Below, piece after piece: positions 11,766-37,130 of a stretch of DNA of 64,000 bases (positions are counted from its first letter, which is position 1; every line of letters begins with the position of its first letter). The DNA comes from Melioribacter sp. (GTDB lineage: Bacteria > Bacteroidota > Ignavibacteria > Ignavibacteriales > Melioribacteraceae), in contig JAHEZQ010000008.1 of assembly GCA_023250955.1 (NCBI GenBank), positions 1-64,000 on the forward strand, given 5' to 3'. Below the pieces are notes generated by a model. The model did not search any database and was not told where the DNA came from. It saw nothing but the letters and a program-made list of their open reading frames with translations. Position numbers and translations under genes: made by a program.

Positions 11766-11853
11766 GATATTCTCCAATTAAAATTCTTTTACTGATGTCA
11801 GTTAACAAATCGGTTGAAATTTAATTATGCAGTAACTGAAATCAGTTTCGTAT

Positions 11854-15699: not shown

Positions 15700-15727
15700 T
15701 ATCTTTTTCTCCATTGGCTCGGAGTAA

Positions 15728-18841: not shown

Positions 18842-18855
18842 AATACTTTCTCCTG

Positions 18856-21462: not shown

Positions 21463-21525
21463 GAGGGTCCTCCCCTTTAAACAAATTATTATAGCATAAT
21501 TAAAAATTATATTTCCAATTAATAA

Positions 21526-21572
21526 AATCTTCCGAAGATCTATAATCTTTTATATAAATCTTCGAAAGATTT
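21526..21572 (-). terminator. Hairpin between jelly-roll gene and TBDR (terminator or attenuator)
   Basis: Two near-identical dyads, AAATCTTCGAAAGATTT (21556-21572) and ATCTTCCGAAGAT (21527-21539), can pair with each other into a stem of about 15 bp with one mismatch. On the - strand it is followed by TTTTATTAATT. It may reduce read-through from the jelly-roll gene into the TBDR. Confidence 0.5.
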
Positions 21573-21590
21573 CATAAAAAATTGCGATGA

Positions 21591-22655
21591 TTATTTCATA
21601 AGAATCATCTTTCTGCTTTCGTAAAAATTGCCAGTTTTTAATGAATACATATAAACACCTGAAGGAACGGAATTTCCAAATTCATTTTTACCATTCCAGC
21701 TAACTGTATAAGAACCAGCAGATTGTTCTTTGGAAACAAGTGTTTTTATTTCACGACCTAATAGATCATAAACTGATAAAGATGTGAAACCACCATTAGA
21801 TAATTTATAAGAGATTTGTGTTTCAGGATTAAATGGATTGGGATAATTCTGCAATAAAGAAAATTCAGTAGGAACTTTTTCGTTATCTTCTACTGATGTA
21901 GCTGCTAGTTGTGTTACAAGAATATTATCAAAATAAGCTGCTAGTCCCGTTGCACTCTGCTGGAATGAATATAAGCCGAAACTGCCTGCTGTATTAGCAC
22001 CTGCGAAGTCACGTTCCAATGGACTATTGGTTAACATTTGATTATCGAAATAACATGAAAACCTTACTTTTGTAGCGTTTATAGTACGAACTTCAATTTT
22101 CAATTTATGCCAACCGCTAGTTGTTGGATAACGGCCTGGATTATCTGCGCCTTTAAAATCATAGTTGAATACAGGTAAGAAAGTAGCGGGATCTGATTTA
22201 AGTCCGGAAAAATTGATACGATTACTTGCATCAAAATCTACACGCATTTTATAAAAATCTTTTTTAGAGCTATCGGCATAAACTATTAATCCTGAATAAC
22301 CGGATGGTGATGGATTTACATAACAATACACATCTGCTTCTATAGCATAATTTTGCAGAGTTACATCACCATTTATTGCAACAGCAGAACCAGTATAAGA
22401 ACCGTTAATATCCTGCAATAGTCCCACATAACTTCCCCCGCCAGTTAGTATTGCAGGAGCCTGTGCCATCGGTACGGCAATTAATGCATCCTCAGGTGTA
22501 GTAGTTCCTGGAACTTTATAATAGGGCCACCATGATGACTTAGCACCATTTTCAAAATTTTCATAGAACAGAATTGTTTGAGAAAAAGTTTTTCCCGCAC
22601 AAAGAAAAGAAAGGATTAGAATTGTGAGACTTAAAATGGTAGATGTTTTTTTCAT
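21591..22655 (-). CDS. Secreted jelly-roll (LamG/DUF1080-like) protein with type A T9SS sorting domain
   Basis: 354 residues. Signal peptide about 1-25. Residues 28-250 form a concanavalin-like beta sandwich (ENFENGAKSSWW, GWHKLKIEVR, AYFDNILVTQL) of the kind that binds or cleaves sugars. After a short linker the last 80 residues are a canonical T9SS type A domain: FSLLQNYPNPFNPETQISY, LSVYDLLGREI, SGVYMYSLKTG, ending KMILMK. No catalytic residues can be assigned, so carbohydrate binding is inference. GGAGG precedes the ATG at 6 nt. It is the first gene downstream of a LytTR-type direct repeat at 22873-22905 and heads module 1. Confidence 0.88.
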   Translation of the reverse strand: MKKTSTILSLTILILSFLCAGKTFSQTILFYENFENGAKSSWWPYYKVPGTTTPEDALIAVPMAQAPAILTGGGSYVGLLQDINGSYTGSAVAINGDVTLQNYAIEADVYCYVNPSPSGYSGLIVYADSSKKDFYKMRVDFDASNRINFSGLKSDPATFLPVFNYDFKGADNPGRYPTTSGWHKLKIEVRTINATKVRFSCYFDNQMLTNSPLERDFAGANTAGSFGLYSFQQSATGLAAYFDNILVTQLAATSVEDNEKVPTEFSLLQNYPNPFNPETQISYKLSNGGFTSLSVYDLLGREIKTLVSKEQSAGSYTVSWNGKNEFGNSVPSGVYMYSLKTGNFYESRKMILMK

Positions 22656-22872: not shown

Positions 22873-22905
22873 GCGATTAGCGGTTAATAGTTGCGAAAAG
22901 TGGTT
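22873..22905 (-). promoter_or_regulatory. LytTR-type direct repeat, site A
   Basis: GCGATTAGCGGTT (22873-22885) and GCGAAAAGTGGTT (22893-22905) repeat with a 20-bp period. Read in the direction of the jelly-roll gene the half-site is AACCGCTAATCGC. It lies about 220-250 bp before the ATG at 22655 and downstream of the regulator gene that may encode its ligand. Confidence 0.65.
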
Positions 22906-22937
22906 TTATAACTGGATAATAGAGAAGAAAATCTTGA

Positions 22938-23663
22938 TTAAACAAATTTCTCTTTTATTTTAGCTGCATATCTACGGCTCATAAGAAAAGGTTTTTCAAA
23001 TCCCTTAAGAAAAACCTTAAAAGAATTAGAAAGCGAATCATCAATTTTAGAAATATAACCTAAGTTCACAATTGTTTCTCTGTGTATTCTGCAGAAATGA
23101 TTTTCTGGAAGTCGATTTTCCCATTCTCTCATAGTTTTTCTAGTTATCGAATGAGTCTTATCAACAGTATGCACAAATGTATAATCTGCATCCGAAGTGA
23201 TAGCAACGATAGAATCAATCTTCAAAAATCTGTATTTATTATTAAGCATAAGGAAAATTACATCGTCGTAATTCAGTTGATGAAATGAATCTGCTTCTTT
23301 TAATGCCCTATGAGTAAGTTTATCAATGGTTTGATGCATTCTTTCGGCACTGACCGGTTTCAACAAATAATCTTGTGCATTAACATCAAATGCTCTGATT
23401 GCATATTTATCGTAAGCAGTTACAAAAACAAAATCCAATTCATAATCTATTTTATTTATCAGATCAAATCCCGATTCCCCTCGTAACTGAATGTCTAGAA
23501 AAACTAAATTCGGATGAAATTTATTTATAAGTAATTCAGCAGCGTTTACAGTGTTTGCTTCTCCAACAATTTCAATTTCATTAAATGTACTAAGAACATT
23601 CTTAAGATCAAGTCTTGCAAGTTTTTCATCATCAACTATTATCGCTTTATATTTTGTCGTCAT
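22938..23663 (-). CDS. LytTR-family response regulator (pair 1)
   Basis: 241 residues. The receiver domain has acidic residues D11/D12, the phospho-acceptor D57 in LVFLDIQLRG, the switch threonine in FVTAYD and the lysine in LLKPV. The LytTR DNA-binding domain starts near residue 135 (VIFLMLNNKYRFLKIDSI) and contains the family pattern FCRIHRETIVNLGYI. It would be phosphorylated by the kinase encoded 12 bp upstream and bind 20-21 bp-spaced direct repeats. 241 residues is the normal AgrA/LytR/BtsR-type length. It is paralogous to the regulator at 26821-27546, sharing most motif residues. Confidence 0.93.
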   Translation of the reverse strand: MTTKYKAIIVDDEKLARLDLKNVLSTFNEIEIVGEANTVNAAELLINKFHPNLVFLDIQLRGESGFDLINKIDYELDFVFVTAYDKYAIRAFDVNAQDYLLKPVSAERMHQTIDKLTHRALKEADSFHQLNYDDVIFLMLNNKYRFLKIDSIVAITSDADYTFVHTVDKTHSITRKTMREWENRLPENHFCRIHRETIVNLGYISKIDDSLSNSFKVFLKGFEKPFLMSRRYAAKIKEKFV

Positions 23664-23675
23664 ATAGTTAACAAT

Positions 23676-24740
23676 TTAGTTCTTTTTTTTGAGTGACATT
23701 TTTACTTGCACAGATTCATCATTTTTAATTATTTGAAAATTATGTTGATTTGGCGAGTAGATTTCTAATCTTCTTTTGATATTTTCCAATCCTCTGCCAT
23801 CATGATTGTTTTTTTCTCTCTCAATCCATTTACCGGTATTGAAAACGCTGATGTTCAAATAATCATCGATCATTTTCGCCGTTATAATAATTTTTAGGGG
23901 GATTGGACTTGTGTGCATTCCATGCTTAATTGCATTTTCAACCAATGGGTGAATAAGAAATATTGGAATATTACAAGACTCAGCAGTTGGTTCAATATTA
24001 AATTCAACAAATAGTTCATCTTCAAATCTTACTTTTTCGATATCTAAATAGTTTTTGATTACCTCAATTTCTTTTGATAGAGCTACTTCGTTATTATGAA
24101 ATTCAATTAATGTGTAGCGCAAAAATTCTGAAATTTTTGTGATGATTTCTTTTGCTTTTTTATTTTCATCTGAAGTAAGCGCTCGCAATGAGCTTAATGT
24201 ATTAAATAGAAAATGAGGATTTAGCTGGTACTTTAACATTTCAAGCTGGGAATTGCGTACGAGTAATAACGCATTATCGGTCTTCTCCTTTTGAGAGACC
24301 CATTCCATCCAAAATTTAATTCCAAAATATAATCCGCTCCATCCAATGAAAACCGCATTGTTCCTAACAATACCTACCACAATTTCCCAAAAAGTAATGT
24401 TTCCTAAAGTTATTTTATTATTCATTAATGATTCAACAATTACTATTGAGCTTACACTCCACAATGTTGAACATATAAAGGATGAAACAAATATAATTAT
24501 AGAGAGTGATACGAATGAATATTCCAAAAAATTTATTCTCTTCAATCTATAACGTAAAAGAACGGATATTATAAAACCAACAGAAAGATTTATTATTCTA
24601 TTAAGAAAATTTTGGAATGTAAAATCTTTAATGGGACTAAACACAAAGATGTATTGAAAAAAGAAAATGATCCAGCCAAATATTTGAAGAAACCAAAAGG
24701 TCGCCTCTTTATTTTTATACATTTCCTTAATCATCTTCAT
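23676..24740 (-). CDS. LytS-type membrane sensor histidine kinase (pair 1)
   Basis: 354 residues. Four hydrophobic segments in the first 150 residues form a membrane sensor without a large extracytoplasmic loop. The His_kinase (LytS/YehU) domain follows: QLEMLKYQLNPHFLFNTLSS holds the phospho-acceptor histidine in NPHFLFN, then PIFLIHPLVENAIKHGM is the N box and HDGRGLENIKRRL the G box. It precedes its regulator by 12 bp. A direct repeat (site B) lies 117-150 bp upstream of the start, which suggests autoregulation. Stimulus unknown. The exact start among three nearby methionines is uncertain. Confidence 0.92.
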   Translation of the reverse strand: MKMIKEMYKNKEATFWFLQIFGWIIFFFQYIFVFSPIKDFTFQNFLNRIINLSVGFIISVLLRYRLKRINFLEYSFVSLSIIIFVSSFICSTLWSVSSIVIVESLMNNKITLGNITFWEIVVGIVRNNAVFIGWSGLYFGIKFWMEWVSQKEKTDNALLLVRNSQLEMLKYQLNPHFLFNTLSSLRALTSDENKKAKEIITKISEFLRYTLIEFHNNEVALSKEIEVIKNYLDIEKVRFEDELFVEFNIEPTAESCNIPIFLIHPLVENAIKHGMHTSPIPLKIIITAKMIDDYLNISVFNTGKWIEREKNNHDGRGLENIKRRLEIYSPNQHNFQIIKNDESVQVKMSLKKKN

Positions 24741-24856
24741 GAGTATTACAATTTTTCAGTTTAGAATAATCTTCTTTCTAAATTGTATGTTTGCTTCAAA
24801 ACTTATTTATCATTTGGTATCAATTTATTCATTTTTCAGAAATAATCCTTTTAATT

Positions 24857-24890
24857 GCGATAAGCGGTTTTTTAGTTATGATAAGCGGTT
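24857..24890 (-). promoter_or_regulatory. LytTR-type direct repeat, site B (best match)
   Basis: GCGATAAGCGGTT (24857-24869) and ATGATAAGCGGTT (24878-24890) share 11 identical bases, GATAAGCGGTT, with a 21-bp period. It lies upstream of the kinase/regulator operon of pair 1, in the same orientation relative to the gene as sites A and D. The rest of the 24741-25130 gap holds no gene I can support. Confidence 0.75.
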
Positions 24891-25130
24891 ATCTTTCACT
24901 AAATGAAATAGCCAGGCAATAGCTCGGGCTATGGGGCAAAACAATAACCGATAGAAAGCAAAAGTTGCACATGTGCCATCCCAACAAATCTCTTACAGAA
25001 TTAATCTGTGTTCTCAATATAATCTTTGTAAAATAAACTATGAATTCATCAACGATTTTATTCACTAATGCAAGCAGATAGATTTTATGCGGATGGATAT
25101 TTCAAAAAAATATTAAGATAAGAACGAAAT

Positions 25131-25391
25131 TCACTGGAATTTTTTACCCCTGGGAAATGCTATTTGATTCGTCTGCGTTTTATTTTCTTCGAAACTATTT
25201 GCAAATATTATTGAAGTAAAATTAATTATAGCGAATAAAACCAATATAGCGCCAATAATTAATATGATTCCGCTTACTAATAGGTAACTATCGGCATAAA
25301 TATAAATTGATTTATCTGCAAACCATCGGGCAAATGAAAATAACGCCACCCCTATTATTGCAATCAAAAAATTTGCAATTTTGTTTCTCAT
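25131..25391 (-). CDS. Small two-helix membrane protein of unknown function
   Basis: 86 residues from the ATG at 25391, which has a strong AGGAGG 5 nt upstream; an in-frame ATG 81 bp further upstream has no such support. Two hydrophobic segments (about 6-24 and 40-65) flank a short loop, and a charged tail ends PRGKKFQ. I recognise no family. It lies alone between the two divergent LytS/LytTR operons and could be an accessory membrane partner of them, but this is only context. Confidence 0.65.
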   Translation of the reverse strand: MRNKIANFLIAIIGVALFSFARWFADKSIYIYADSYLLVSGIILIIGAILVLFAIINFTSIIFANSFEENKTQTNQIAFPRGKKFQ

Positions 25392-25607
25392 TTGTTCCTC
25401 CTGCATAAAGTTTACTTTTTTTCTAACTTCGATAATAGTATTATCCACCGATTCGAAAAACCTCCTTGCCATTCCTTTATTATAGACGATTAAAAAGATA
25501 AAATGTTGTGTGGGAAAATTGCTGCCCGCATAAATTGGTATTCAAGCATGAAAGTTGCTTTTTTAAAAAGGATATGTGGCCCGATAAAAACAAATAAATT
25601 ATATATT

Positions 25608-25640
25608 AACCGTTTACGGATTAATAAAGCCGCTTAAAAA
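25608..25640 (+). promoter_or_regulatory. LytTR-type direct repeat, site C
   Basis: AACCGTTTACGGA (25608-25620) and AGCCGCTTAAAAA (25628-25640) match the reverse complement of the site B half-site with a 20-bp period. It lies 81-113 bp before the kinase ATG at 25721, in the same orientation relative to its gene as sites A, B and D. Weaker second halves than site B. Confidence 0.55.
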
Positions 25641-25720
25641 TTTTTATGCAATTTTAGTATCTTGAATAACGATATTATACCCGAAAATAATTTTTCATTT
25701 TTTCTGTACGGGTTTATTAA

Positions 25721-26824
25721 ATGTGGTCAATTAGAAAATATATCAAAAAAGAATTTCTTGATAACAAACATCCCTCTTTCCATTTTATCAATACTTTAGG
25801 ATGGATCATTTTCGTTGCGGTGGATTCCTTTATCATAAGTCCACAACAAACTACTATAAGTGTCCCATTTTTTATTATTAATACATTACAATGGGCAACA
25901 GGTTATTTAATTACTATCTACCTCAGACGTATATATAAAGACTTTCCTTATAGATCTAAATCTATCGTTACAATAATTGGATTTATTTTTACAATCTCTT
26001 TTCTTGCTTCGTGTTTGTTATATTTTTCATCTCATTTTGTTTGTTTTATTCTTGATCCTCGATACCAGAAAGTAATCTTACAATCAATTTTTAATATAAA
26101 TTATATTACTAAAATGATGATTATGGTAGTTCCTTTGATGACAACCTGGAGTTTACTTTACTTCGGAATTAAATTCTGGATAGATTTATTGGAGGAACGG
26201 GAAAGAGCTCAAAAAGCACAACTTCTTGCACAAAGCGCACAACTTCAAATGCTTCGGTATCAGATTAATCCGCATTTTTTATTTAACTCCTTTAGCTCAC
26301 TCCGTGCACTAATTCGTATTGATCAGAATAAAGCTGAAAATATGTTAAGCAAATTATCGGAATTTTATAGATACACTCTCGTTACAAAAAGTAATACCGA
26401 AATTCCCCTTATTGAAGAAATAGAAGCTATAACTCATTATGCCGAAATTGAAAAAATCCGTTTTGAAGACAAAATTGAGTTTGAATTTAACGTTGATACA
26501 CTTGCTGAAGAATATCCAATTCCAAGTTTTTTAATTCATCCCCTTGTAGAAAACGCAATTAAATATGGAATGAAAACCAGCAAAATGCCACTAAAAATCT
26601 GGATCAATGCAACGGTTGAGAATAATTGGCTGATTATTCGAATCACTAACACAGGTAAATTTATTAAACAGGGCAGTGATGAAGACCATGTAGGAACAGG
26701 AAACGGATTATTAAACATAAAGAACAGATTAGCATACAGCTACCCTTACAAAAACAAGTTCGAAATCAATGAACAAGACGGGAAAGTCTGTGCAACTGTC
26801 AAAATTTTTAAGGAGCTGAAATGA
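25721..26824 (+). CDS. LytS-type membrane sensor histidine kinase (pair 2)
   Basis: 367 residues, paralogous to the kinase at 23676-24740. Four hydrophobic segments span about 20-150, then a coiled linker (EERERAQKAQLLAQSAQ) leads into LQMLRYQINPHFLFNSFSSL with the phospho-acceptor histidine, the N box FLIHPLVENAIKYGM and the G box GTGNGLLNIKNRL. Stop and the next start overlap as ATGA, so kinase and regulator are translationally coupled. Site C lies just upstream. The ribosome-binding site is weak. Signal unknown. Confidence 0.93.
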   Translation: MWSIRKYIKKEFLDNKHPSFHFINTLGWIIFVAVDSFIISPQQTTISVPFFIINTLQWATGYLITIYLRRIYKDFPYRSKSIVTIIGFIFTISFLASCLLYFSSHFVCFILDPRYQKVILQSIFNINYITKMMIMVVPLMTTWSLLYFGIKFWIDLLEERERAQKAQLLAQSAQLQMLRYQINPHFLFNSFSSLRALIRIDQNKAENMLSKLSEFYRYTLVTKSNTEIPLIEEIEAITHYAEIEKIRFEDKIEFEFNVDTLAEEYPIPSFLIHPLVENAIKYGMKTSKMPLKIWINATVENNWLIIRITNTGKFIKQGSDEDHVGTGNGLLNIKNRLAYSYPYKNKFEINEQDGKVCATVKIFKELK

Positions 26825-27546
26825 GTAATACATTTAAAGCCATAATTGTTGATGACGAAAAACTTGCAAGAGAGGACCTCAAGGCAATTTCAAAAAATTT
26901 TGAAGAGATTGAAATTATTGGTGAAGCAAGTAATATTAAAGAAGCTAAAAAATTAATTGAAAGTTTAAGTCCCGATTTAATTTTTCTTGATATACAGATG
27001 CCGGGTAAAACTGGTTTCGATCTTCTTACCGAAATTCAAACCGACGCTAAAATTATTTTTGTTACTGCTTATGATGAATATGCAATTAGGGCTTTTGAAG
27101 TTAATGCACAGGATTATTTATTAAAACCCGTGAATAAAGAAAGATTTTCTTTAGCACTAGAACACTTAAAATTTGAAAGTGAAATTCATAAAGATTCTTA
27201 CAAAAAACTTGAATATAATGATAACGTTTTCCTGATGGTGAATAATGCATACCAATTCATTAAAGTTAGTTCAATAATTGTAATCACTGCTGCAGGAAAT
27301 TACTCTGAAATCTTAACGACTACAAAACTAAAAGGTTTAGTTTTAAAATCTATGAAAGAATGGGAGACAAGACTTCCTGATAATTCTTTTATAAGAATAC
27401 ATAGAAATGCTATAATCAACCTAGAATTTTTAGATCGAACCGAAGATTGGTTTAGTTATTCTTATCAGGTATTTCTAAAGGGAATAGAAAAACCGTTTGT
27501 AATGAGCAGACGATATGCGTCAAAACTGAAAGATAAAATGGTATAA
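26821..27546 (+). CDS. LytTR-family response regulator (pair 2)
   Basis: 241 residues, same architecture as the pair 1 regulator: receiver with D11/D12, phospho-acceptor D57 in LIFLDIQMPG, FVTAYD and LLKPV, then a LytTR domain with FIRIHRNAIINLEFL. AAGGAG precedes the ATG inside the kinase gene. The two regulators share the DNA-recognition end SRRYA(S/A)K(L/I)K, so they may read the same or similar repeats. The gene is followed by a TTGAGA/TCTCAA dyad at 27699-27715 and then by the RNA element at 27757. Confidence 0.93.
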   Translation: MSNTFKAIIVDDEKLAREDLKAISKNFEEIEIIGEASNIKEAKKLIESLSPDLIFLDIQMPGKTGFDLLTEIQTDAKIIFVTAYDEYAIRAFEVNAQDYLLKPVNKERFSLALEHLKFESEIHKDSYKKLEYNDNVFLMVNNAYQFIKVSSIIVITAAGNYSEILTTTKLKGLVLKSMKEWETRLPDNSFIRIHRNAIINLEFLDRTEDWFSYSYQVFLKGIEKPFVMSRRYASKLKDKMV

Positions 27547-27582
27547 GTTTTATTAGTCAAGCAATATTTAATAGTAGTTTTT

Positions 27583-27615
27583 AACCTCTCACTTAACCGA
27601 TTCACCCTTTATCAC
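27583..27615 (+). promoter_or_regulatory. Weak LytTR-type direct repeat, site E
   Basis: AACCTCTCACTTA (27583-27595) and CACCCTTTATCAC (27603-27615) have the 20-bp period and the AACC..(C)TT(A)T pattern but several mismatches. It lies 142 bp before the structured RNA element, so it could drive that element independently of the regulator gene. Candidate only. Confidence 0.35.
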
Positions 27616-27756
27616 AATTCAATTCATTTTCTCAAAAAATAATTTCATCTTGCATTGAATGAAAATATTCCCGAATAGTTACTTTCAACAATAAAATATT
27701 GAGACACTATCTCAATTGAATTTTAGGAGATTTTAACTGTCAGCTAATAAAATTTT

Positions 27757-27809
27757 GAGGCTATCTACAAGGGTTCAATACCCTTTCTTTCGATGCATAT
27801 TAGAGCCTC
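27757..27809 (+). ncRNA. Structured RNA element, copy I
   Basis: GAGGCT (27757-27762) pairs with AGCCTC (27804-27809). Inside are a hairpin, AAGGGT (27769-27774) with ACCCTT (27780-27785), and a single-stranded core CTTTCGATGCATATT (27787-27801). A CTCCTCT stretch and a strong terminator follow at 27816-27857. Copy II (29549-29600, opposite strand) has the same order of parts, the identical 15-nt core and the identical closing stem but a completely different hairpin sequence, which suggests the structure is conserved. No frame with a ribosome-binding site crosses it. It is a candidate small RNA, either in the 3' region of the regulator transcript or from its own promoter. Not recognised as a known family; that cannot be checked here. 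Confidence 0.6.
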
Positions 27810-27815
27810 CCGTCT

Positions 27816-27857
27816 CCTCTCTGAAGATTAATCTCTTGGTCCTCAGAGAGGTTTTTT
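27816..27857 (+). terminator. Strong intrinsic terminator after RNA copy I
   Basis: CCTCTCTGA (27816-27824) is perfectly complementary to TCAGAGAGG (27843-27851), followed by six Ts (27852-27857). The loop contains a small AGATTAATCT dyad. Confidence 0.85.
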
Positions 27858-27872
27858 AAGGAATTATAAAAT

Positions 27873-27905
27873 GTTTCAAACGGTTTTATAAACATATAAG
27901 CGGAT
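27873..27905. promoter_or_regulatory. Weak LytTR-type direct repeat, site F
   Basis: GTTTCAAACGGTT (27873-27885) and CATATAAGCGGAT (27893-27905) repeat with a 20-bp period; the second half keeps ATAAGCGG. It lies 138-170 bp before the HEAT-repeat gene but is reversed relative to the orientation seen at sites A-D. Candidate only. Confidence 0.35.
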
Positions 27906-28042
27906 GAACACTTTGTACCTTTCAATAGTCTTATATGATGAACAATTGGAAATATATCTTGCTCAGCGATAATCAAATAAAATTGCTATCTGTTGTCAGT
28001 TTTCCAATTAAATATTTTTAAACAAAAATCTCAGGAGGTAAT

Positions 28043-28504
28043 ATGAAACCGAGATTCATAATATCGTCTATAGTGTTTGCAGTGTTACTATTCACAACTG
28101 CTGCTAACTGTCAAAACAGTAATCTTTCAGACGACGAAAAAAAACATCAAGTTGTTTGTAAGAATCCGTTAAAAGGTTTACAGTGCCCTGATGAAGACAT
28201 TCGTCTTGATTGTGCATTCGCATTAGGTAAAATCAAATCTGAAAAAGCAATTATTCCTTTAATGAAATTGTTAAGAGAAGATCCTAGTGATGCTGTCCGG
28301 ATTGTTGCTGCTCAATCTTTAATTGAAATCGGCGATCCACGCGGCGTTTTTCTTGTAGGACGTTCTGCTAAGTTTAATAACTCCGAGCGTGTAAGGAACT
28401 TATGTGATAAGTTTTATTCTTATTATATGATTTCAGAAAGTTTAGCAAAGCTAGAGGATAGTTCTACGGAAGAATTAACAATGGATATTGAAATTAAGGA
28501 TTAA
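28043..28504 (+). CDS. Small secreted HEAT-repeat protein
   Basis: 153 residues. Signal peptide about 1-23 (ending AANCQ; the cysteine is a possible but atypical lipobox). Two HEAT/PBS-lyase-type repeats follow: IRLDCAFALGKIKSEKAIIPLMKLLRE-like helices at about 55-85 and VRIVAAQSLIEIGDPRG at about 90-106. AGGAGG lies 4 nt before the ATG. HEAT proteins are binding scaffolds; the partner is unknown. It lies downstream of the RNA-copy-I terminator and of weak site F, inside the LytTR neighbourhood, which suggests but does not show co-regulation. Confidence 0.8.
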   Translation: MKPRFIISSIVFAVLLFTTAANCQNSNLSDDEKKHQVVCKNPLKGLQCPDEDIRLDCAFALGKIKSEKAIIPLMKLLREDPSDAVRIVAAQSLIEIGDPRGVFLVGRSAKFNNSERVRNLCDKFYSYYMISESLAKLEDSSTEELTMDIEIKD

Positions 28505-28725
28505 TAATTCGTGTGGGGATTCCGTATTGTAATTTTTGCACAATTTAGAATGCTAAAGATGTGGTATAATGAAGATCCGGAAGCTGTTTCAAATACTAAA
28601 TTGACTTAACACTTTTGAGACAGCATTTCCTCTCTATTATAATTACAATGTCTTCCTAAAAATAATCTTTAATTATCATAAGATTGATTAAGACCGATCA
28701 GCATACAATTATTGGAAGGTTCGAA

Positions 28726-29421
28726 TTGATCAATATTGAAAAAGAGTTTGTTCTCAGTTATATCGAAGAAGAACTTTCCGTTTTACTTGATGAGATCGGT
28801 GATGTTATAATCGCTTTAGATAATCTTCTACTACTAAGTGGCTTGAACAATGTACAACATACGAAAAATTTAAAATTACGCATTGATAGGCTTAAGAAAG
28901 CGATTAAACCTTTAATAGAATTGAGCTTTCCTGAATATTCATCAGAAAACAGTTTAGAGTTATGCGATCTTGGTTCATTATTAGATAAAATGCTTCCCTC
29001 CCTAAAGAGCTATGGGCAGAATAAAAATGTCATTGTTAATTCATTAATCATCACTCCGACAAGAATTAATGGAAATAGCGACCAATTAAGATCTGTGTTT
29101 AAACAATTACTCTATCTATTAATTAAGGAATTTGAAAACGGTGGAAGGATAGAATTGTCTGCACAGAAAGAAAACAAAAAAATAATAATCACAATAAATA
29201 TTTACGGGTCATTAAGATTTGAAATAACTTACGAAACAATTATTAACCAGGAAGAGCTCTTCTCAAAAAAAATTATGTGGAAAACACAAGCAACAAAATT
29301 ATTTCTCATAAGCAATACATTAAAACAAAACCAATCAAAAATAACGATTCGCAAATTATCACCCACACATAGAATCATATCTATTATATTACCTACAAAC
29401 GGTTCAGAAAATAATAAGTAA
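28726..29421 (+). CDS. Degenerate histidine-kinase-like protein, probably catalytically inactive
   Basis: About 231 residues from TTG 28726, which has GGAAGG 6 nt upstream; a TTG at 28684 is possible but unsupported. The layout resembles a helical-bundle plus GHKL ATPase: a helical segment with a coiled part (DEIGDVIIALDNLLLLSG), an N-box-like region (LRSVFKQLLYLLIKEF) and a G1-like position reading ITINIYGSLRFE, where the DxGxG signature is missing. No phospho-acceptor histidine box is seen. No ATG lies in the first third. It may be a decayed kinase or an adaptor that binds other kinases. No neighbour in tight operon; it is convergent with module 2. Confidence 0.6.
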   Translation: MINIEKEFVLSYIEEELSVLLDEIGDVIIALDNLLLLSGLNNVQHTKNLKLRIDRLKKAIKPLIELSFPEYSSENSLELCDLGSLLDKMLPSLKSYGQNKNVIVNSLIITPTRINGNSDQLRSVFKQLLYLLIKEFENGGRIELSAQKENKKIIITINIYGSLRFEITYETIINQEELFSKKIMWKTQATKLFLISNTLKQNQSKITIRKLSPTHRIISIILPTNGSENNK

Positions 29422-29511
29422 TAAATTTTTCGTCCTTTATTACTTTCTTTTTATAGACGGATAATCAGAAAAACAACTTGAATCATATATTAATCTTATA
29501 CCTATAAAACT

Positions 29512-29541
29512 CTTCTCCCAGGTGGGCCGACCTGGGAGAAG
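29512..29541 (-). terminator. Strong intrinsic terminator after RNA copy II
   Basis: A perfect 12-bp stem, CTTCTCCCAGGT with ACCTGGGAGAAG, encloses a 6-nt GC loop. On the - strand it is followed by AGTTTTATAG. It ends the module 2 transcript. Confidence 0.85.
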
Positions 29542-29548
29542 TAGAGGA

Positions 29549-29600
29549 GAGGCAAAATATGCATCGAAAGATGTGGGGCCCTTTCTTCCCCACTTGCCTC
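29549..29600 (-). ncRNA. Structured RNA element, copy II (3' end of module 2)
   Basis: On the - strand GAGGC (29600-29596) pairs with GCCTC (29553-29549), enclosing a hairpin GTGGGG/CCCCAC (29593-29588 with 29578-29573) and the same core CTTTCGATGCATATT (29570-29556) as copy I, then TCCTCT and a terminator. It begins 9 bp after the stop of the PorV-like gene, so it is a 3'-UTR element of module 2. No gene on this strand follows closely, which argues against a cis-acting leader role. Likely processed or terminated small RNA. Confidence 0.6.
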
Positions 29601-29609
29601 AAAAGTATT

Positions 29610-30638
29610 TTAAAATCCTAATGATATTCCGAACATATGACTTGAACTGAAATATTTTACGTCTCTGTAGGCGTAATCAAATTTAACATCAACACCTTCA
29701 ACGTTATATTTAAGACCAAAACCAAATGTATATCTGTACAAGAAAGTGTTGGATTCATACTCTGGAGCGAATGTATAACCGCCTCTAAAGAAAAGCATAT
29801 CATTGTAACTATACTCTGCACCAATTTTATATTGATCGCCCGCGAAATTATTATTCTGGAAAGATGAAGAAATGTTGAGCGAATTTTTTCCGATGTAAAT
29901 CGGGCGATAAGTTAATCCAATCTCAAATGAAGAAGGCAAATCAAATGGTGCCGGATCAATTTTATAATATTGCATTGGTCTTGTTAAGCTTGGAGCTTCT
30001 GCTTGAACATTTAATCCTGAACCTCCATATTTCATTTGAGGTCCGATATTTTTCATAGTCATCGCAAAACTTAATCCATCAACGCCTGCTAAACCTGTAT
30101 ACATTACACCAAGATTAAATGCAATACCGGTTGTACTAACAAGATTTAATGTTTCGCTGATCAGATTTGCTGTTAAACCTACTGATATTCTATCACTTAG
30201 ATTTTTTGCAAAAGTTAATCCTAATGTCATTAATTGTGGACTGTAAGTTTGTCCGGTTCCATCAGGATTCTCTACAGTGGTTACGGGAATATCTTCTATT
30301 GATAGAGATTTTATTGCAAAGGCTAGAGAGCCTAAACCATTAACTTGAATGCCAACAGCTGCATAGTTTACACCAATATCAGCTATGTGAGACATATAAG
30401 AAAATGAAGTTTCAACAGATTGGTTCGTGCGAGAAAGTCCAGCCGGATTCCAATATAGTGCTTCTAATCCCGTCATAGAAGAAATATTGGCTCCATTCAA
30501 ACCGATACCTCGTGCACCAACTGGAATTAGTAATTGTGCAGCTCCGCCGGTTCCGTTTCTAGAACCACCACCAGCAAAAGTCGTTGCTTGTGTTATTAAT
30601 AAAAGTACTATTAATATTATGTTAATTTTATTTTTCAT
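29610..30638 (-). CDS. PorV/PorQ-family outer-membrane protein (module 2)
   Basis: 342 residues. Signal peptide ends TTFAG. Family fingerprint: GGAAQLLIPVGARGIGLNGA then LEALYWNPAGLS, the VTTVENPDGTGQTY loop and a C-terminal strand ending GISLGF. It is paralogous to the protein at 14680-15699, with the same DGTG loop and barrel pattern. It starts 25 bp after the giant protein gene (GAGG ribosome-binding site) and ends module 2. Expected role: outer-membrane shuttle for T9SS cargo, by analogy with PorV/LptO. The organism's core T9SS genes are not in this window. Confidence 0.85.
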   Translation of the reverse strand: MKNKINIILIVLLLITQATTFAGGGSRNGTGGAAQLLIPVGARGIGLNGANISSMTGLEALYWNPAGLSRTNQSVETSFSYMSHIADIGVNYAAVGIQVNGLGSLAFAIKSLSIEDIPVTTVENPDGTGQTYSPQLMTLGLTFAKNLSDRISVGLTANLISETLNLVSTTGIAFNLGVMYTGLAGVDGLSFAMTMKNIGPQMKYGGSGLNVQAEAPSLTRPMQYYKIDPAPFDLPSSFEIGLTYRPIYIGKNSLNISSSFQNNNFAGDQYKIGAEYSYNDMLFFRGGYTFAPEYESNTFLYRYTFGFGLKYNVEGVDVKFDYAYRDVKYFSSSHMFGISLGF

Positions 30639-30663
30639 TTTTTCCTCAAACTTTTTTTCAACT

Positions 30664-33600
30664 TTAGAATTTATCGAGAATCTGTTGTTCTTGGACTATA
30701 GAAAACTTTAATGTCTTCGTGGTACCTAGATCTGGCATTTCAATGAATGCTATATAGAGACCGCTTGCAGCCGGTAAACCGGATGAGTTCAATAAATCCC
30801 ATCTTTCAAATTGAGAATTATTTTCTTTTTCAATTACTCTTATCATTTCACCAGCAACATTTACTATTCTTATAGTTGCTCTATTTGGTAAATGACTGAA
30901 AGTAATCAATCGGAAGTATTTATTCTGTTCTTGTGTATTAACTCCGTAATAAGGATTTGGAAAGACATTTATTTTCTTTACATCTTCTCGGGCAAGGTCT
31001 ATATCATTTGTATTGGCTGGTGCAGTAAATCTAAATTCATCGTTTACTGTGTTAGGTTTTGTTGTTTCGATTCTGAATATAGATCCTGTTTCTGGCATTG
31101 TTGCTGCGCAGTTGGCTGGCCAGTTTGCAGCACTTACTGATCCAAGATTCCAACCTACAAGTACTAAACGAGCCATAATCTCATTACCAACCGTTGATGT
31201 TGTTCCTGAAGCATCATAATCGCTGGCGACCACTGCATCATAACCTTTTGTTCCCGGTGTATGATCTGCAACATCATAAATATAAATCCAATCTGTTTCC
31301 GGATCATTATCTCCACCTGAAAGACTATGATCAACTTTATCAAGATCAAATATATCGTTCCCATTTACATCATTAATTAAAGCGCAAAGTTTATAATCAT
31401 CTGATGGATCGTTAGGTGTTCCTATACCGGTATTCCAAATTTCAAAGGGAACTTGTACTGTATTGTATGTCGTAAATCCCATATTAGCTTTACTACCTGT
31501 TGCAGTGAAACGAATTTCAAAATCGTAAGGAATAATTCTTGTAAAGTTATCTTCGCGTGGAACGCGTGTTAAGAAGAATGCATATGTTCCTGTATTTGAT
31601 GCATTCATACCTGTAGCAATTCCCCACAGTGCCGTACTGTTTCTCATTTGTCCAGCAGTTGGTCTATCATTAACTCCATCGCCTGGCAGTCCATCTAATG
31701 TTGGGAATCCGTTATCATTGAATGCAAATGTTCCCATTGCAGGAGTTGTTAATTTTCCACCTGCATTGGCAGTTATTAAGAATTTCTTAAAATCATTTGG
31801 AGGACCGGTTACTTTTATTTCTAGTCCGTCAACAATTGGATAAGAATTATCACCGGATTGGTTCGCAACTTTACTTGCTTTTACAACGCCAGTATTTATA
31901 TCGGTTACATTCCAAACAATATTATTCGTAGTTCCAACTTTTTCAAAATTAACTTTATAGGTATGCCCAGTTACTTGTGTCGGATCTTTCACTGTTGCTA
32001 CAACATTACCATCAGATTTGCTAGATGTAGTTGATGTATGTGTTACGCCAGTTATTGAATTTCCATAGGTATTAGTATATCGAATACCTGGGTTAGAACT
32101 TTTTGGGGTTACTCTAACTGATGTAATTGGATTTTCCAGAACTTGTGGAACTGCAAGCGGATCCGGATTATATGAATAAGATGTTACCGCATAATAGTAT
32201 TCAGATCCATTGTAAAGTGGTTGACCTGTTCTCACATAATCTTGATTAATGTCTATTGATCTCGATATTCCGTTATCTTTTCCAAACTGAACGGGAACCA
32301 TTTCATTGTTACCGGTTCTGCTATCAAATACATAATCGTAAAGAACTTTTACATTATTAACCAAATCATAAGTAGCAATTAATTTTGCATCTGCTTTTAA
32401 GGATGATGATAACGGTAATTGATAAACGTTATATCCTTCAAATCGATAACCTCTTTGAAAATAATTTTCGGTAAGTGCTGCAGCCGTAGGATCACCCCAA
32501 GAGAGTATAACTTCTTTATCTAATCCGGAAGCCGTTATAATAGGTTGAGCAGCTCCAGTAGGAATTTGAAAGAAATTATTATAAGCATCTTGAGCAACTT
32601 GATCATATGCTTTAAGTAGGGTTACAGAATTGAGATAATCGGTTCCCATAGCACAAATTTGAGCAACAACAACTTCTTGTGTATCTCCCGGAGCCATATT
32701 AAATGGTCCAGAAGCTGAACCTATTCTTCTATCGCTCGTGCTGATAATTTCACCGTCTATCCAACCTGTTCCTGTAACCGGATCGCCGGATAAAGCATAT
32801 GGAGTTGCGTGTGCACCTAGTCTGGCTGGAGTTCTAAAAGATTCACCGCTTCTTCCAATTCTACCCTGGAAGAAATTATAAAACTCTGTGGTTCCTTGAT
32901 ATGATCCGTTAGGTGGATCAGTTACAGCTGGATCTCCTTTTGCAAAATAATAAAATGCAGTCATTGGTAGATTTCTCTTACCAGCTATTTTCTTCCCTCT
33001 AAAAATTGCTGTATCTGTTGCGGATCCATTTACAATTGGACCTTGGAAGAAATCAAAACCAGTTGCCGGCGGAATCATTGTACCATATCTTGCATCATGA
33101 TTTGAAGAATTATAAACATAACCGAGACTTAAAGTTGTATCGCATCCAGCCAGATCATCATCAGAAAATCCTAAGTCTATATCAGACCACATACTTAAAT
33201 ACATATCTCTGAAAGTATCTCGACTTTTATTTATCAATAAGTATTTCCTGAAAATCATATTTCCCAAAGGACCAGCTTGAGAATATGCCCACATAGTACC
33301 TTGTTCTTCAATACCCATTGGTTGAGAACCATGGAGGGCAGTTGTTTTAGTTGCATCTAGATCATTTGCAACATACCAAATTGTTTGACTGGCACCGGGA
33401 ACTCCTGGAATGTCAACATCTGGATTATATATTTTATCACCATCTTTGTCTTCGAATGGAGCGCCGTCTTGCCATGGCCATTCTCTCCAATCTAAATCGT
33501 ATTGATTATATACTTCCGCTATTGGAAGCCCTTCATCTCTAGATTCCATTGTAAGATCGGCTGTTTTATAATCCGGTCTAACACGATAGATTCTATTTTT

Positions 33601-33987
33601 GGGTAAATCAGGACTTTCAGCAACTCCTGGAGAAAGTATTTTACCAGGCTGTAGTCCGGCAACGTATGCATTTCCTCCAACTTTAATATCAGTTGCGCTA
33701 CCATTTATTTTAGCTCCCCATAACAAACCAGATTCATAAGCTGCTGTTCTTCCGCTTCCTTTAGGATAAAAGAAACCAGCTGTATTAGAATCTAGATCAT
33801 CTGAGTCACCATCACTTCTAAAAAAAGTTGAAATGTTATTAATGTTAAGTCTAGCAGTATTAGGTGAACCAAGCAGCGTTTTATTTATTTTCTTTTTTGT
33901 TCCTTTCCCTTCAGCAAATTGTTTTGCTGGTAAAAACAAAAAGGAAAGAGCAATTAGTAATAGTATTACAATTTTATTTTTAATCAT
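30664..33987 (-). CDS. Giant secreted protein with T9SS-type C-terminal domain (module 2)
   Basis: 1107 residues. Signal peptide about 1-25. It shares layout with the module 1 protein: an N-terminal region with a conserved FNMAPGDTQEVVVAQ segment, a fibronectin-like part (KEVILSWGDP, FEGYNVYQLP, YYYAVTSYSY) and a terminal sorting domain from INVFPNPYYGVN to TKTLKFSIVQ. It lacks the CxxCH motif of its paralogue. An Asp-rich EDKDGDKIYNPDVD segment may bind calcium. GGGAG lies 9 nt before the ATG. Predicted cargo of the adjacent PorV-like protein. Molecular function unknown. Confidence 0.8.
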   Translation of the reverse strand: MIKNKIVILLLIALSFLFLPAKQFAEGKGTKKKINKTLLGSPNTARLNINNISTFFRSDGDSDDLDSNTAGFFYPKGSGRTAAYESGLLWGAKINGSATDIKVGGNAYVAGLQPGKILSPGVAESPDLPKNRIYRVRPDYKTADLTMESRDEGLPIAEVYNQYDLDWREWPWQDGAPFEDKDGDKIYNPDVDIPGVPGASQTIWYVANDLDATKTTALHGSQPMGIEEQGTMWAYSQAGPLGNMIFRKYLLINKSRDTFRDMYLSMWSDIDLGFSDDDLAGCDTTLSLGYVYNSSNHDARYGTMIPPATGFDFFQGPIVNGSATDTAIFRGKKIAGKRNLPMTAFYYFAKGDPAVTDPPNGSYQGTTEFYNFFQGRIGRSGESFRTPARLGAHATPYALSGDPVTGTGWIDGEIISTSDRRIGSASGPFNMAPGDTQEVVVAQICAMGTDYLNSVTLLKAYDQVAQDAYNNFFQIPTGAAQPIITASGLDKEVILSWGDPTAAALTENYFQRGYRFEGYNVYQLPLSSSLKADAKLIATYDLVNNVKVLYDYVFDSRTGNNEMVPVQFGKDNGISRSIDINQDYVRTGQPLYNGSEYYYAVTSYSYNPDPLAVPQVLENPITSVRVTPKSSNPGIRYTNTYGNSITGVTHTSTTSSKSDGNVVATVKDPTQVTGHTYKVNFEKVGTTNNIVWNVTDINTGVVKASKVANQSGDNSYPIVDGLEIKVTGPPNDFKKFLITANAGGKLTTPAMGTFAFNDNGFPTLDGLPGDGVNDRPTAGQMRNSTALWGIATGMNASNTGTYAFFLTRVPREDNFTRIIPYDFEIRFTATGSKANMGFTTYNTVQVPFEIWNTGIGTPNDPSDDYKLCALINDVNGNDIFDLDKVDHSLSGGDNDPETDWIYIYDVADHTPGTKGYDAVVASDYDASGTTSTVGNEIMARLVLVGWNLGSVSAANWPANCAATMPETGSIFRIETTKPNTVNDEFRFTAPANTNDIDLAREDVKKINVFPNPYYGVNTQEQNKYFRLITFSHLPNRATIRIVNVAGEMIRVIEKENNSQFERWDLLNSSGLPAASGLYIAFIEMPDLGTTKTLKFSIVQEQQILDKF

Positions 33988-34027
33988 TTTAATTAACTCC
34001 CATTATTTTTTTTCAACAAAAGACCAA

Positions 34028-36985
34028 TTAATATTCCAATCTGAGACCTAAACGGATTTGGCGTGGCGGTCCCCAGAAATTTGGATTAGTCATTAAGTAT
34101 CCATTGGCTACTTGTTGGTATTGTTGATAGTAGTCAATATTTATTGCTCTATACATTTCAGTATAACCTGGCTGGGTAACAAGCTGTCCGCTCAATTGAG
34201 GATTACTGATATAACCATCATCCGTATTAGAACCAGTTCGTAAGAATACATTTTCAACATTTTTTTTATCAAAAAGATTAATAACAAATAAATAAATGTT
34301 CAGTTTTAATCTATTAAAGAGATGGACTGTTTTATCTATGCGAAGATCAACCTGGAAAGTAGATGGTGTAACCGATGCATTTAATGATTCAACCGGAACT
34401 CTTCCTCTGGGATTTCCTTCAAGATCAGCAGCACCAACACCACGTGTAAAAGGATGCCCACTTGAAAAAGTCATCAATAACGAAGCACCAAATTCATGAA
34501 GAAGTGAAGGACCATCATTAATTCCAAAGTGATAATCAAAATTAATACTGCCTCTAAATGCATTATTAAAAACAAGCGGCGATACATAAGCCGGTAAATA
34601 TGTAACACCTTCAGCACCAGCAACCATACCACTATTTGAATTTGGGTATGAGCCCGTCCCTTCAGCATCTTGGAGTGAAAGTGATGCGTTCATTGCAATT
34701 CTTTTAATCCTACGCATTTGAAAGGACATTTCAATTCCCTTGGTTGTAGCAAAATCTCCATTTGTATAAACAGGATAGTTTTTAGTTTGTGATTCTTTTC
34801 TTGCAACAACCATTTGATATGTGACCTGATCTTTTATGTCTTTATAATATCCTGTGATATCAAATGAAGCGAAATCTCCGATTTGCTGTGTAAATCCAAT
34901 TTCGTATTGAATTGTTTTTGTTGGTTGCAAACTAAACGCAACTGGTTGTGGAAGATAATTGCCGCCTACCAAATTGCGAGCGGATGCATAATAGCCCTGA
35001 TAAATATCCGCGAGTCGAGTTTGCTGAATAAATTTTCCGTATTGGGCATGAAACATTGTTACATCAGTTACGGGGAAAGCCACTCCAATTCTTGGACTTA
35101 GATATGAGTAGGATGGAACTTTTTTCAAGCCAGAAGGAATAATATCGTAATTACTGCTAAAATTAAAAGCAGCATCGGGATAAGTTGGATCTACAAATTC
35201 ATACGTATCTGTATTTATGTAATCAAATCGCAGACCTAAATTCAAAATGATATCTGCGTAAGTAATTTTATCTTGTAAAAATGCAGATGCAAATACTGGA
35301 CGATGCGGACCAAAATATTCATCGTTATCAAGTTCATTTCCTAAAACATCATAACCGTAATTGTTCACACCTCTAGTTTGCATTACCTGTTCAATAGTTC
35401 TAGTACCTCTTGCACTAATCAAACCGGCAAGAGCAACTGCATTTCCATTAGCCCATCCATAATTACGCATTACATATTTTTGATATTCTCCGCCGATTTT
35501 AATTGAATGGATTTTATCCGGATCCCATGAAAATGTTCCGCTTAATGTGAAATTCTCTCTCTTAAATTTTCCATACCCTGCCAAAGGGTCACCAGGCTGA
35601 CTGAAAGCAAATCCATAAATACTGATTTGACTTGGTCTAACATATCGGCTTTGGAAATTTGTAAATCCATATTGAGCATTTGCCAGACTGTCGCCATATG
35701 CCATGAAATCATCTTTTAAATAAGGATCATAAAATTTCTGAGATTGAAAGAAATAACCGAGAGTTATATCATAAAACATTTTATCACTAAGAACATGTGT
35801 AAATTTTACACTACCCGAACCATTTTTTGCATCGCGCTGTTCTGTTCTTGAAGTGTTTAACATATTGCTGATACTTCCAGCGACTCGATTTGAATTCTGG
35901 GGATTTTGAAAAGATTGATCTGTATATGTACCGGCAAAACGAATCTGAATTGGATTTAAGTCCACTGATAGAGTAGAAGAAAAAGTTATTGCTCTGTTTT
36001 GATTATCCATTAGAGCTCCCGCAGGGTAAACTAAATTAATTGAATCCTGCGTAGAAGCATCTCTGTACCATCCCAAATTTATACCTGGATAGCGTTGAGG
36101 ATTTGGATCTCTTTGATAATTATAATTTGCAAGACCAAAGAACTTAACTTTTTCACCCAAGATAGGTCCGCTTAATGTTGCGGTTAATTCATCATACCCG
36201 TACCAGTAAGCACCTAAACGTTGCTTCCCATCGTAAGCATTATCTTTACTCTTGAACGTAATATTATCTGTTGTATAATCTAAAGTACCTTTAAAATTTC
36301 TAGTCCCGGATTTTAATTGTTGGCGAATAATCCCGGCATTTGCACCGCCATATTCAGCGGTATAACCGCCGACTTGAACTTGGACTTCTTCTACTGCATC
36401 TTGCACAACACGTACCGCATTATTTCCGGTCATTGGATTTCTAACATTAATTCCTTCTAAATAAAAACCTGTTTCATCAATTCTTCCGCCTCTTATAAAT
36501 AATGTATTGTCTTGCATTACAACTCCTGCAGAGAGACTTATTATATTATTCATACCCCTAACAGGTAAATTTTCGATGTCTTCTCTTGAGGTTACACGGA
36601 TAGCATTTGTATTACTTTTATTAACTAACTCTTTCTGCGCTACAATTGTAATTTCATTCATTGACACGTCTTGAGAAGTTAATTCGAAATTTAATTCTGT
36701 AGTCAGATCGGATGATACTCTTACGTTTGTAACCGATTCTGAGGAATAGCTAATAAATGAAGTTTTAACTTCATATGTGCCTGCAACCAAATTGGAGATA
36801 ACATAATCTCCATTCAGATCTGTTGCTGCACCAAATGAAGTCCCAACAACAATCACATTGGCACCAATCAAAGGTTCACGAGTTGCTCTGTCAACTACAC
36901 GTCCTTTGATTTTACCAGTTGCTGCAATTGCAATTGATGATGCGACAAGAAATAGGAAGATAAAAACGGTTAGGATTTTTTTCAT
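34028..36985 (-). CDS. TonB-dependent receptor with carboxypeptidase-like N-terminal domain (module 2)
   Basis: About 985 residues. The ATG at 36985 has AGGAGG 4 nt upstream and begins a clear signal peptide (MKKILTVFIFLFLVASS); longer readings lack support. A carboxypeptidase-like domain (GKIKGRVVDRATREPLIGAN), a plug (VTSREDIENLPVRGMNNI, FIRGGRIDETGFYLEGINVR, YTAEYGGANAGIIRQQLKSG) and a barrel ending RQIRLGLRLEY follow. Paralogous to the module 1 receptor. No SusD is adjacent. Site D lies 113-145 bp upstream of the start, so the whole module is a likely LytTR target. Confidence 0.92.
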   Translation of the reverse strand: MKKILTVFIFLFLVASSIAIAATGKIKGRVVDRATREPLIGANVIVVGTSFGAATDLNGDYVISNLVAGTYEVKTSFISYSSESVTNVRVSSDLTTELNFELTSQDVSMNEITIVAQKELVNKSNTNAIRVTSREDIENLPVRGMNNIISLSAGVVMQDNTLFIRGGRIDETGFYLEGINVRNPMTGNNAVRVVQDAVEEVQVQVGGYTAEYGGANAGIIRQQLKSGTRNFKGTLDYTTDNITFKSKDNAYDGKQRLGAYWYGYDELTATLSGPILGEKVKFFGLANYNYQRDPNPQRYPGINLGWYRDASTQDSINLVYPAGALMDNQNRAITFSSTLSVDLNPIQIRFAGTYTDQSFQNPQNSNRVAGSISNMLNTSRTEQRDAKNGSGSVKFTHVLSDKMFYDITLGYFFQSQKFYDPYLKDDFMAYGDSLANAQYGFTNFQSRYVRPSQISIYGFAFSQPGDPLAGYGKFKRENFTLSGTFSWDPDKIHSIKIGGEYQKYVMRNYGWANGNAVALAGLISARGTRTIEQVMQTRGVNNYGYDVLGNELDNDEYFGPHRPVFASAFLQDKITYADIILNLGLRFDYINTDTYEFVDPTYPDAAFNFSSNYDIIPSGLKKVPSYSYLSPRIGVAFPVTDVTMFHAQYGKFIQQTRLADIYQGYYASARNLVGGNYLPQPVAFSLQPTKTIQYEIGFTQQIGDFASFDITGYYKDIKDQVTYQMVVARKESQTKNYPVYTNGDFATTKGIEMSFQMRRIKRIAMNASLSLQDAEGTGSYPNSNSGMVAGAEGVTYLPAYVSPLVFNNAFRGSINFDYHFGINDGPSLLHEFGASLLMTFSSGHPFTRGVGAADLEGNPRGRVPVESLNASVTPSTFQVDLRIDKTVHLFNRLKLNIYLFVINLFDKKNVENVFLRTGSNTDDGYISNPQLSGQLVTQPGYTEMYRAINIDYYQQYQQVANGYLMTNPNFWGPPRQIRLGLRLEY

Positions 36986-37097
36986 ATTTCCTCCTGTTAA
37001 GAAAAAAAATATTTTTTCATTTTTGGTAAATACGTATTCTGTGCAAGTAAATTCTGAGCGCAATTTATATTCTAATATGGAAGACAAAAATCATTCT

Positions 37098-37130
37098 GTG
37101 ATAAGCGGTTAATATGTTTTGCGAGCGGTT
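37098..37130 (-). promoter_or_regulatory. LytTR-type direct repeat, site D
   Basis: GTGATAAGCGGTT (37098-37110) and TTTGCGAGCGGTT (37118-37130), 20-bp period, upstream of the module 2 TBDR and in the same orientation relative to the gene as sites A-C. On the - strand a TTG (37087-37085), 17 bp and TAAATTG (37067-37061) could be a Bacteroidetes-like promoter just downstream. The stretch 37131-37583 shows only scattered half-site-like words (near 37150 and 37380) and no gene. Confidence 0.7.

Follow-up and report, generated by a model that had tools for sequence, protein, structure and literature searches.

Four head-to-tail sequence repeats in a 64,000-nt stretch of the genome of a Melioribacter sp. 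(contig JAHEZQ010000008.1; the whole stretch is referred to here as the window) probably represent operators of two LytTR response regulators that are encoded among them. Each regulator is paired with a sensor kinase, and the proposed wiring has system 1 (sensor kinase 1 and regulator 1) acting on module 1 and system 2 (sensor kinase 2 and regulator 2) acting on module 2, where both modules include genes for a TonB-dependent receptor (receptor 1 and receptor 2, respectively), a large protein and a PorV-like protein. A first-pass annotation of this DNA had described direct repeats with a period of 20–21 bp at four places, located 80–250 bp upstream of start codons and pointing in the same direction relative to the gene; all four repeats were found where they had been placed, and their period, distance and uniform orientation relative to the genes were borne out by measurement.

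Site A (22873–22905, minus strand; period 20) is located before the gene for the module 1 secreted protein, with the half-sites AACCACTTTTCG and AACCGCTAATCG on the gene strand and approximately 217 bp to the ATG; this site is kept in genomes G003 and G007, and loci L132 and L133 have counterparts before similar genes. Site B (24857–24890, minus strand; half-sites AACCGCTTATCA and AACCGCTTATCG) is the only one of the four with a period of 21; it precedes the ATG of kinase 1 by approximately 116 bp and is also kept in G003 and G007, there at period 20. Upstream of kinase 2, site C (25608–25640, plus strand; period 20) presents the half-sites AACCGTTTACGG and AGCCGCTTAAAA approximately 81 bp from the ATG and has a counterpart in G001. 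Site D (37098–37130, minus strand; period 20; half-sites AACCGCTCGCAA and AACCGCTTATCA) lies approximately 112 bp from the ATG of receptor 2, and its counterpart in G001 is found before a receptor that is 89% identical to receptor 2.

The significance of these sites resides in the head-to-tail pairing at 20–21 bp and not in the half-site. On the gene strand, the half-site reads AACCGCTTAT-like; its complement, GCGATAAGCGGTT, occurs exactly only once in the window (at 24857), and with up to three mismatches it presented 15 matches versus 8.7 expected, a number reached in 6 of 100 shuffles. Both halves of site C and the second half of site D are absent from these 15 matches. For pairs, a matrix made of the eight half-sites themselves yielded five pairs of at least 21.5 bits in the window, as compared to a mean of 0.007 (maximum of 1) in 300 dinucleotide shuffles, and at 21 bits the window pairs were confined to periods 20 and 21 (periods 11–45 scanned). 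The comparison with random sequence that the first-pass annotation had proposed comes out in favour of the pairs. A matrix derived anew from loci in other genomes, the site choice for which traces back to a matrix begun from the window half-sites, scored sites A–D at 21.8, 31.5, 19.1, and 22.7 bits, respectively.

At the genome level, a degenerate pair pattern presented 16 matches in the 3.26-Mb genome, as compared to three for the reversed control. This pattern was fitted to sites A–D, so that recovering these sites is trivial; that they are the sole intergenic matches is not, as each of the other 12 matches overlaps a reading frame (60 codons or longer) and sites A–D overlap none. Relatives of kinase 1 scoring at least 225 bits were found in 10 of 38 related genomes. 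With a first matrix, the kinase was found to be preceded by a pair of >20 bits in G003, G007, G001, G004, and G020, and by a weak pair in G013; a refined matrix added pairs upstream of the kinase in G023 (20.3 bits), G031 (17.9 bits), and G032 (23.3 bits).

Pairs with the same period also recur in a set of 80 loci (1.08 Mb) that were chosen by kinase similarity alone; the closest named kinase records come from Ignavibacteriales, Melioribacteraceae, and Ignavibacteria assemblies, and some of the loci share contigs with the genome set (L169 with G013, L139 with G019, L138 with G032, L159 with G155, and L189 with G151). A half-site matrix trained on 76 kinase upstream regions, begun from the window half-sites, approximates AACCG[CT]T[TC][AG]TCG and presented a posterior of >0.9 in 30 of these regions. 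At a threshold of 18 bits, the 80 loci contained 59 pairs with period 20 and seven with period 21, with 0–7 pairs at each of the other periods between 13 and 40; at 21 bits, 39 pairs with period 20 and three with period 21 were found, and no other period presented more than one. Most of the classified pairs (51/62) are intergenic, including 25 that face a kinase gene and 26 that do not. Kinase upstream regions (450 bp) contained a pair of at least 18 bits on the gene strand in 26 of 75 cases and on the opposite strand in 10 of 75, while no pairs were found inside the same 75 kinases and none at periods 17, 19, 22, and 23. When matrices were rebuilt from half of the loci, with training sites still picked with the full matrix, pairs were recovered in 60 of 190 held-out cases versus 0 and 0 for two controls. 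These fixed-matrix and half-split tests supersede motif finding by expectation maximization, which gave no clean control: kinase coding stretches yielded a motif of their own (71/80), shuffled regions yielded a different consensus (12/76), and 28/76 was obtained when the upstream regions were read on the reverse strand. The reverse-strand matches are, at least in part, divergent operons that have pairs of their own. Both the contrast between promoters and coding DNA and the recurrence in orthologous promoters, which the first-pass annotation had put forward as checks, speak for the repeats; pairs recur elsewhere before homologous kinase operons and before adjacent genes for exported proteins.

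Several observations weigh against reading the repeats as operators of the LytTR regulators. An exact pair pattern presented 13 matches in 39 genomes versus 17 for the reversed control, i.e., no enrichment by count; of these 13 matches, six (counting those in the window) are promoters that belong to either the kinase clade or receptor 2. In 49 of 75 kinases, about two thirds, the upstream region lacks a pair at 18 bits, and in G019 both kinase copies lack a pair even at 15 bits. Site C has the lowest score of the four (19 bits), and a fifth pair (27874–27905, minus strand; 17–22 bits), which the first-pass annotation had not named, runs opposite to the HEAT gene that lies downstream of it and points away from this nearest downstream gene.

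Cassettes that occur separately in related genomes bear on which system serves which module. Genomes G003 (a draft of 180 contigs, 99% complete) and G007 contain kinase 1 and receptor 1 at 92–97% identity and no close kinase 2 or receptor 2, and G001 contains receptor 2 at 89% identity along with the system 2 kinase and no close kinase 1 or receptor 1. Among 50 receptor-homologue loci from 22 genomes, our own (G000) included (L077–L126; a few of these cover the same gene), only five presented a pair of at least 17 bits, namely those of receptor 1 in G000, G003, and G007 and those of receptor 2 in G000 and G001, and these are the genomes with the close matching kinase. G024 and G028, which have no member of the kinase clade, encode receptor 1 homologues (63–64% identity) with no pair in the surrounding 20 and 10 kb, respectively. 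In addition, a CG end was found in 12 of 13 distinct half-sites of system 1 (window, G007, L132, and L133) but in none of the 17 that come from system 2 or its closest relatives (window, G001, G004, L159, L189, and L169); this count is post hoc, uses related rows, and leaves aside the weak pair of the G013 kinase as well as the weak pairs found behind regulator 2.

The first-pass annotation had proposed that both regulators control both modules, which would make all four sites part of one cross-wired regulon. We consider this unlikely; although an ACCGYTT core is common to all sites, the two regulators share the same SRRY stretch near the C-terminus, and both systems lie within 5 kb of one genome, each cassette is found without the other in relatives and the half-site 3′ ends differ. 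One-to-one wiring is favoured over cross-control on the present sequence comparisons. A very improbable alternative is that the repeats are operators of a transcription factor other than the neighbouring LytTR proteins; the genome does carry four further LytTR genes, which is nothing direct, and this alternative would have to account for sites that turned up in many genomes through similarity of the neighbouring kinase alone, for a half-site and spacing equal to those of published LytTR sites, and for receptor homologues that lack the pair where these kinases are missing. Chance or local composition has next to no probability as an origin of the pairs and was rejected on the period spectrum and the coding controls; the single half-site is indeed not significant, but the excess of pairs is specific for the period, both in the window and in independent loci, and is absent from kinase coding DNA.

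The DNA itself displays the pairs and their period, as well as their location between genes ahead of start codons and their recurrence before homologous kinases; phosphorylation, binding, activation rather than repression, and one-to-one wiring are inferred. In the mechanism we propose, each sensor kinase would signal to its own partner LytTR protein, two molecules of which would occupy the same face of the helix in a head-to-tail arrangement (half-sites of approximately ACCGYTTA with a period of 20–21 bp). Operators before the kinase-regulator operon would provide feedback, and operators before the neighbouring outer-membrane operon, which encodes the TonB-dependent receptor, the large protein, and the PorV-like protein, would control the module; the two systems with their modules would be homologous cassettes that meet in this genome. 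Autoregulation, which had already been proposed in the first-pass annotation and agrees with the pairs before kinase operons of other genomes, is well supported by comparison, together with control of the adjacent module by the predicted operators.

Regulators 1 (22938–23663, minus strand) and 2 (26821–27546, plus strand) both pass the Pfam cut-offs for a receiver (PF00072) and a LytTR domain (PF04397), as expected from their initial description as LytTR regulators. For sensor kinases 1 (23676–24740, minus strand) and 2 (25721–26824, plus strand), His_kinase PF06580 was the sole Pfam family with E values up to 0.001; neither 5TMR_LYT nor GAF was found. Module 1 includes, all on the minus strand, a gene encoding a secreted protein with a type IX secretion system (T9SS) sorting tail (21591–22655), receptor 1 (18856–21462; over the Pfam cut-off), a large protein with no Pfam family (15728–18862), and a PorV-like protein (14680–15753; over the cut-off). 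The secreted protein had been called a jelly-roll protein; Pfam gave no jelly-roll family for it. Module 2, also on the minus strand, includes receptor 2 (34028–36985 from its ATG; over the cut-off), a large protein with no Pfam family (30664–33987), and a PorV-like protein (29610–30638) that scores 26.4 bits, slightly below the curated cut-off of 27. This gene content agrees with the definition of a TonB-receptor/secreted protein/PorV module; the T9SS tail is found on the module 1 secreted protein alone. A HEAT-repeat protein is encoded downstream of regulator 2 (28043–28504, plus strand).

A very stable hairpin is located between the module 1 secreted-protein gene and receptor 1 (21463–21590, minus strand; spacer fold of −37.7 kcal/mol). 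Genes encoding M16 and M1/M28 peptidases are found behind module 1 on the same strand (5940–14472 of the window, minus strand), and an M16 gene is located directly behind the regulator in L134; these peptidase neighbours of the module and of a regulator provide hints of peptide use. The genome encodes six LytTR genes, including four outside the window. One of these four, on contig C48, is directly followed by a pair whose core is altered (TATCGCTCGTCG/GATCGCTCGTCT; L214:9585–9616, minus strand) and may belong to a third system of separate specificity; no pair was found at 11 bits in the 3 kb surrounding each of the three remaining LytTR genes.

To characterize targets in other genomes, we scanned with Pfam the downstream proteins of 19 of the 26 intergenic pairs that do not face a kinase, along with L189:10176, where the pair is in coding DNA; L149, L160, L165, L176, L185, and L200 were outside the scan, and L135 has no downstream gene. 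The 20 proteins include three TonB-dependent receptors (L142, L169, and L189), two laminin-G-like domain proteins that have a T9SS tail (L136 and L164), three ankyrin-repeat proteins (L146, L162, and L163), two of which have a metallo-beta-lactamase-superfamily domain, and one further metallo-beta-lactamase-superfamily protein (L186). Two glucose/sorbosone dehydrogenases (L175 and L177), two HEAT-repeat proteins (L137 and L189), and two proteins without family that by eye resemble the module 1 secreted protein (L132 and L133) were also found, as were a lumazine-binding-like protein, an esterase, a methyltransferase, a short peptide without family, and a beta-lactamase-type protein located 1.7 kb from its pair. 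Many of the target proteins have, by eye, starts that resemble signal peptides; this suggests that the targets lean toward exported proteins, with receptors being only some of them. In L208 (9435–9771, plus strand), a 21.6-bit pair is followed by a short peptide with a start that, as judged by eye, resembles a peptide-modification leader with a double-glycine-like stretch at the end of the leader.

Behind regulator 2, a weak sixth pair (27583–27614, plus strand; 11.1 or 12.7 bits depending on the background), likewise absent from the first-pass annotation, and the fifth pair flank a putative RNA element. Counterparts of the weak pair in the same place score 15.4 bits in G001, 14.3 bits in G004, and 15.6 bits in L159; the fifth pair scores 17.8 bits in the window, with counterparts in G001 (10.5 bits), G004 (16.0 bits), and L159 (16.9 bits). 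In 400 mononucleotide shuffles per spacer, 12 bits were reached 0 times on the weak-pair strand and 0–1 times on the fifth-pair strand; the window's weak pair and the G001 counterpart of the fifth pair fall below this mark. Copy a of the RNA element (27752–27861, plus strand) lies between the two pairs and is folded, with a terminator at its end; it is possible that the weak pair is the promoter element for this RNA. Copy b (29502–29605, minus strand) begins 4 bp behind the stop codon of the module 2 PorV-like gene and was found by a first covariance model that had not included it (E value of 5.6e-8). This model was built from four such spacers; of the 164 genomes of the order, 11 contained a match to it, including the four that had supplied the model, and a second model presented matches in 15 of the 164 genomes, strongest in genera g1, g31, and g48. 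Copies are found behind genes that by eye encode PorV-like, HEAT, and thioredoxin-like proteins. Over 13 copies, 95% of the pair cells are standard, as compared to 42–58% for slid partners, and 17 of 23 pairs changed on both sides, as compared to 4–8 for slid partners; of five shuffle measures, one was reached in 17 of 500 shuffles and the remaining four in none. These counts come from an alignment fitted to the model, and a structure-free alignment recovered only the terminator helix; the counts therefore lean toward the model. The loop contains CTTTCGATGCATA in six of the 13 copies and TTCGATGCATA in nine. No Rfam family matched in the window at the gathering score, with two weak sub-threshold matches in 27500–29700, and no conserved small open frames were seen in the RNA region.

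The complement of the loop spans the start codon of a receptor 2 paralogue (ATGCATCGAAAG; protein start MHRK). In our genome, this receptor (G000:C65:43608; L239:809) is 46% identical to receptor 2, and the gene behind it resembles, by eye, that of the module 2 large protein. The MHRK start region has 12 exact bases complementary to the 15-base loop, while the next best of 114 start regions from the stretches analysed has seven. The first codons of this receptor differ by few bases across several genera. Complementarity at the MHRK start was found throughout the genus apart from one genome that is 72% complete (11/12) and, outside the genus, in G017, G019, G022, and G059; over the 12 genomes, 18 occurrences of the 12-mer were counted, versus three for the reversed control. 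LytTR regulators that drive a regulatory RNA are known from other phyla (AgrA with RNAIII and VirR with VR-RNA). We tentatively propose, as a less likely part of our model, that the weak pair drives a small RNA whose loop (CTTTCGATGCATA) would block the start of the MHRK paralogue, leading to receptor exchange; the module 2 operon, itself behind site D, would then have copy b as its 3′ end, and switching on module 2 would shut down translation of the paralogous receptor. A number of findings argue against this RNA target. Of 25 loci with the 12-mer that were examined outside the genus, 19 are inside reading frames and one is a receptor start. G007 has the receptor start sequence and no detected RNA copy, no model match was found in G002, G006, G008, G009, and G010, and G121 and G122 hold the loop core without the MHRK receptor start. 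Duplex energies did not discriminate, with copy b ranking first of 110 start regions by a small margin and copy a ranking behind at least five other start regions.

The half-site code and autoregulation are already known from published LytTR systems, and the repeats described here match the published sites of BtsR and BrsR in half-site and spacing, in line with the first-pass statement that LytTR proteins bind direct repeats approximately 21 bp apart. The YehT/BtsR site of PyjiY is given as ACCGCTTA and ACCACTCA, 21 bp apart, in PMC4847170; on the PyjiY oligonucleotide, our refined matrix scores an overlapping period-20 pair slightly above the 21-bp one. BtsS/BtsR (YehU/YehT) of E. coli resembles the systems described here in combining a kinase with a receiver-LytTR regulator, in having the same half-site and nearly the same period, and in controlling an uptake protein. 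However, BtsS is described in PMC10653868 as having a 5TMR_LYT membrane domain and a GAF domain, which the kinases described here lack, and where BtsSR controls a CstA/BtsT-type pyruvate transporter, the sites here stand before the kinase operons and before the genes for one T9SS-tailed protein and one TonB-dependent receptor, with a period that is mostly 20. For LytTR regulatory systems (LRS), PMC6193735 gives spacers of 11–13 bp between repeats in many phyla and, for Streptococcus mutans BrsRM, ACCACTTAT-12 bp-ACCGCTTAT repeats before its own operon with positive feedback. LRS such as BrsRM have no kinase and pair the regulator with a membrane inhibitor, whereas the regulators here have a receiver domain and an adjacent histidine kinase. 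Because the kinases lack 5TMR_LYT and GAF and the regulators have receivers, the systems here are neither BtsSR nor LRS. E. coli YpdA/YpdB (PyrS/PyrR) is also a kinase with a LytTR regulator and a direct-repeat operator, for which PMC4847170 reports the half-site GGCATTTCAT; YpdB thus differs from our regulators in its half-site and has SRSK near the C-terminus instead of the SRRY that is common to BtsR, regulator 1, and regulator 2, and this stretch may serve as a lead to half-site specificity. For HigX of Caulobacter crescentus, also a LytTR protein, PMC13384398 reports numerous binding peaks at genes for the envelope and for transport, as well as suppressors with insertions inside a TonB-dependent receptor gene and 218 bp ahead of it. 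HigX differs from the regulators here as a membrane-bound single protein without a kinase and with a spacerless inverted repeat as its motif. It is the sole link between LytTR proteins and TonB-dependent receptors that we found in the open-access literature.

These results bear on how Ignavibacteria-type and related bacteria choose among TonB-receptor modules. An operator code with a fixed 20-bp period that belongs to one kinase family, seen in records of several phyla, makes regulons predictable from sequence and supplies candidate target genes for these kinases. If the RNA arm holds true, induction of one receptor module would be coupled to repression of its paralogue, and the element would represent an additional RNA family with a seed of 12–13 bases.

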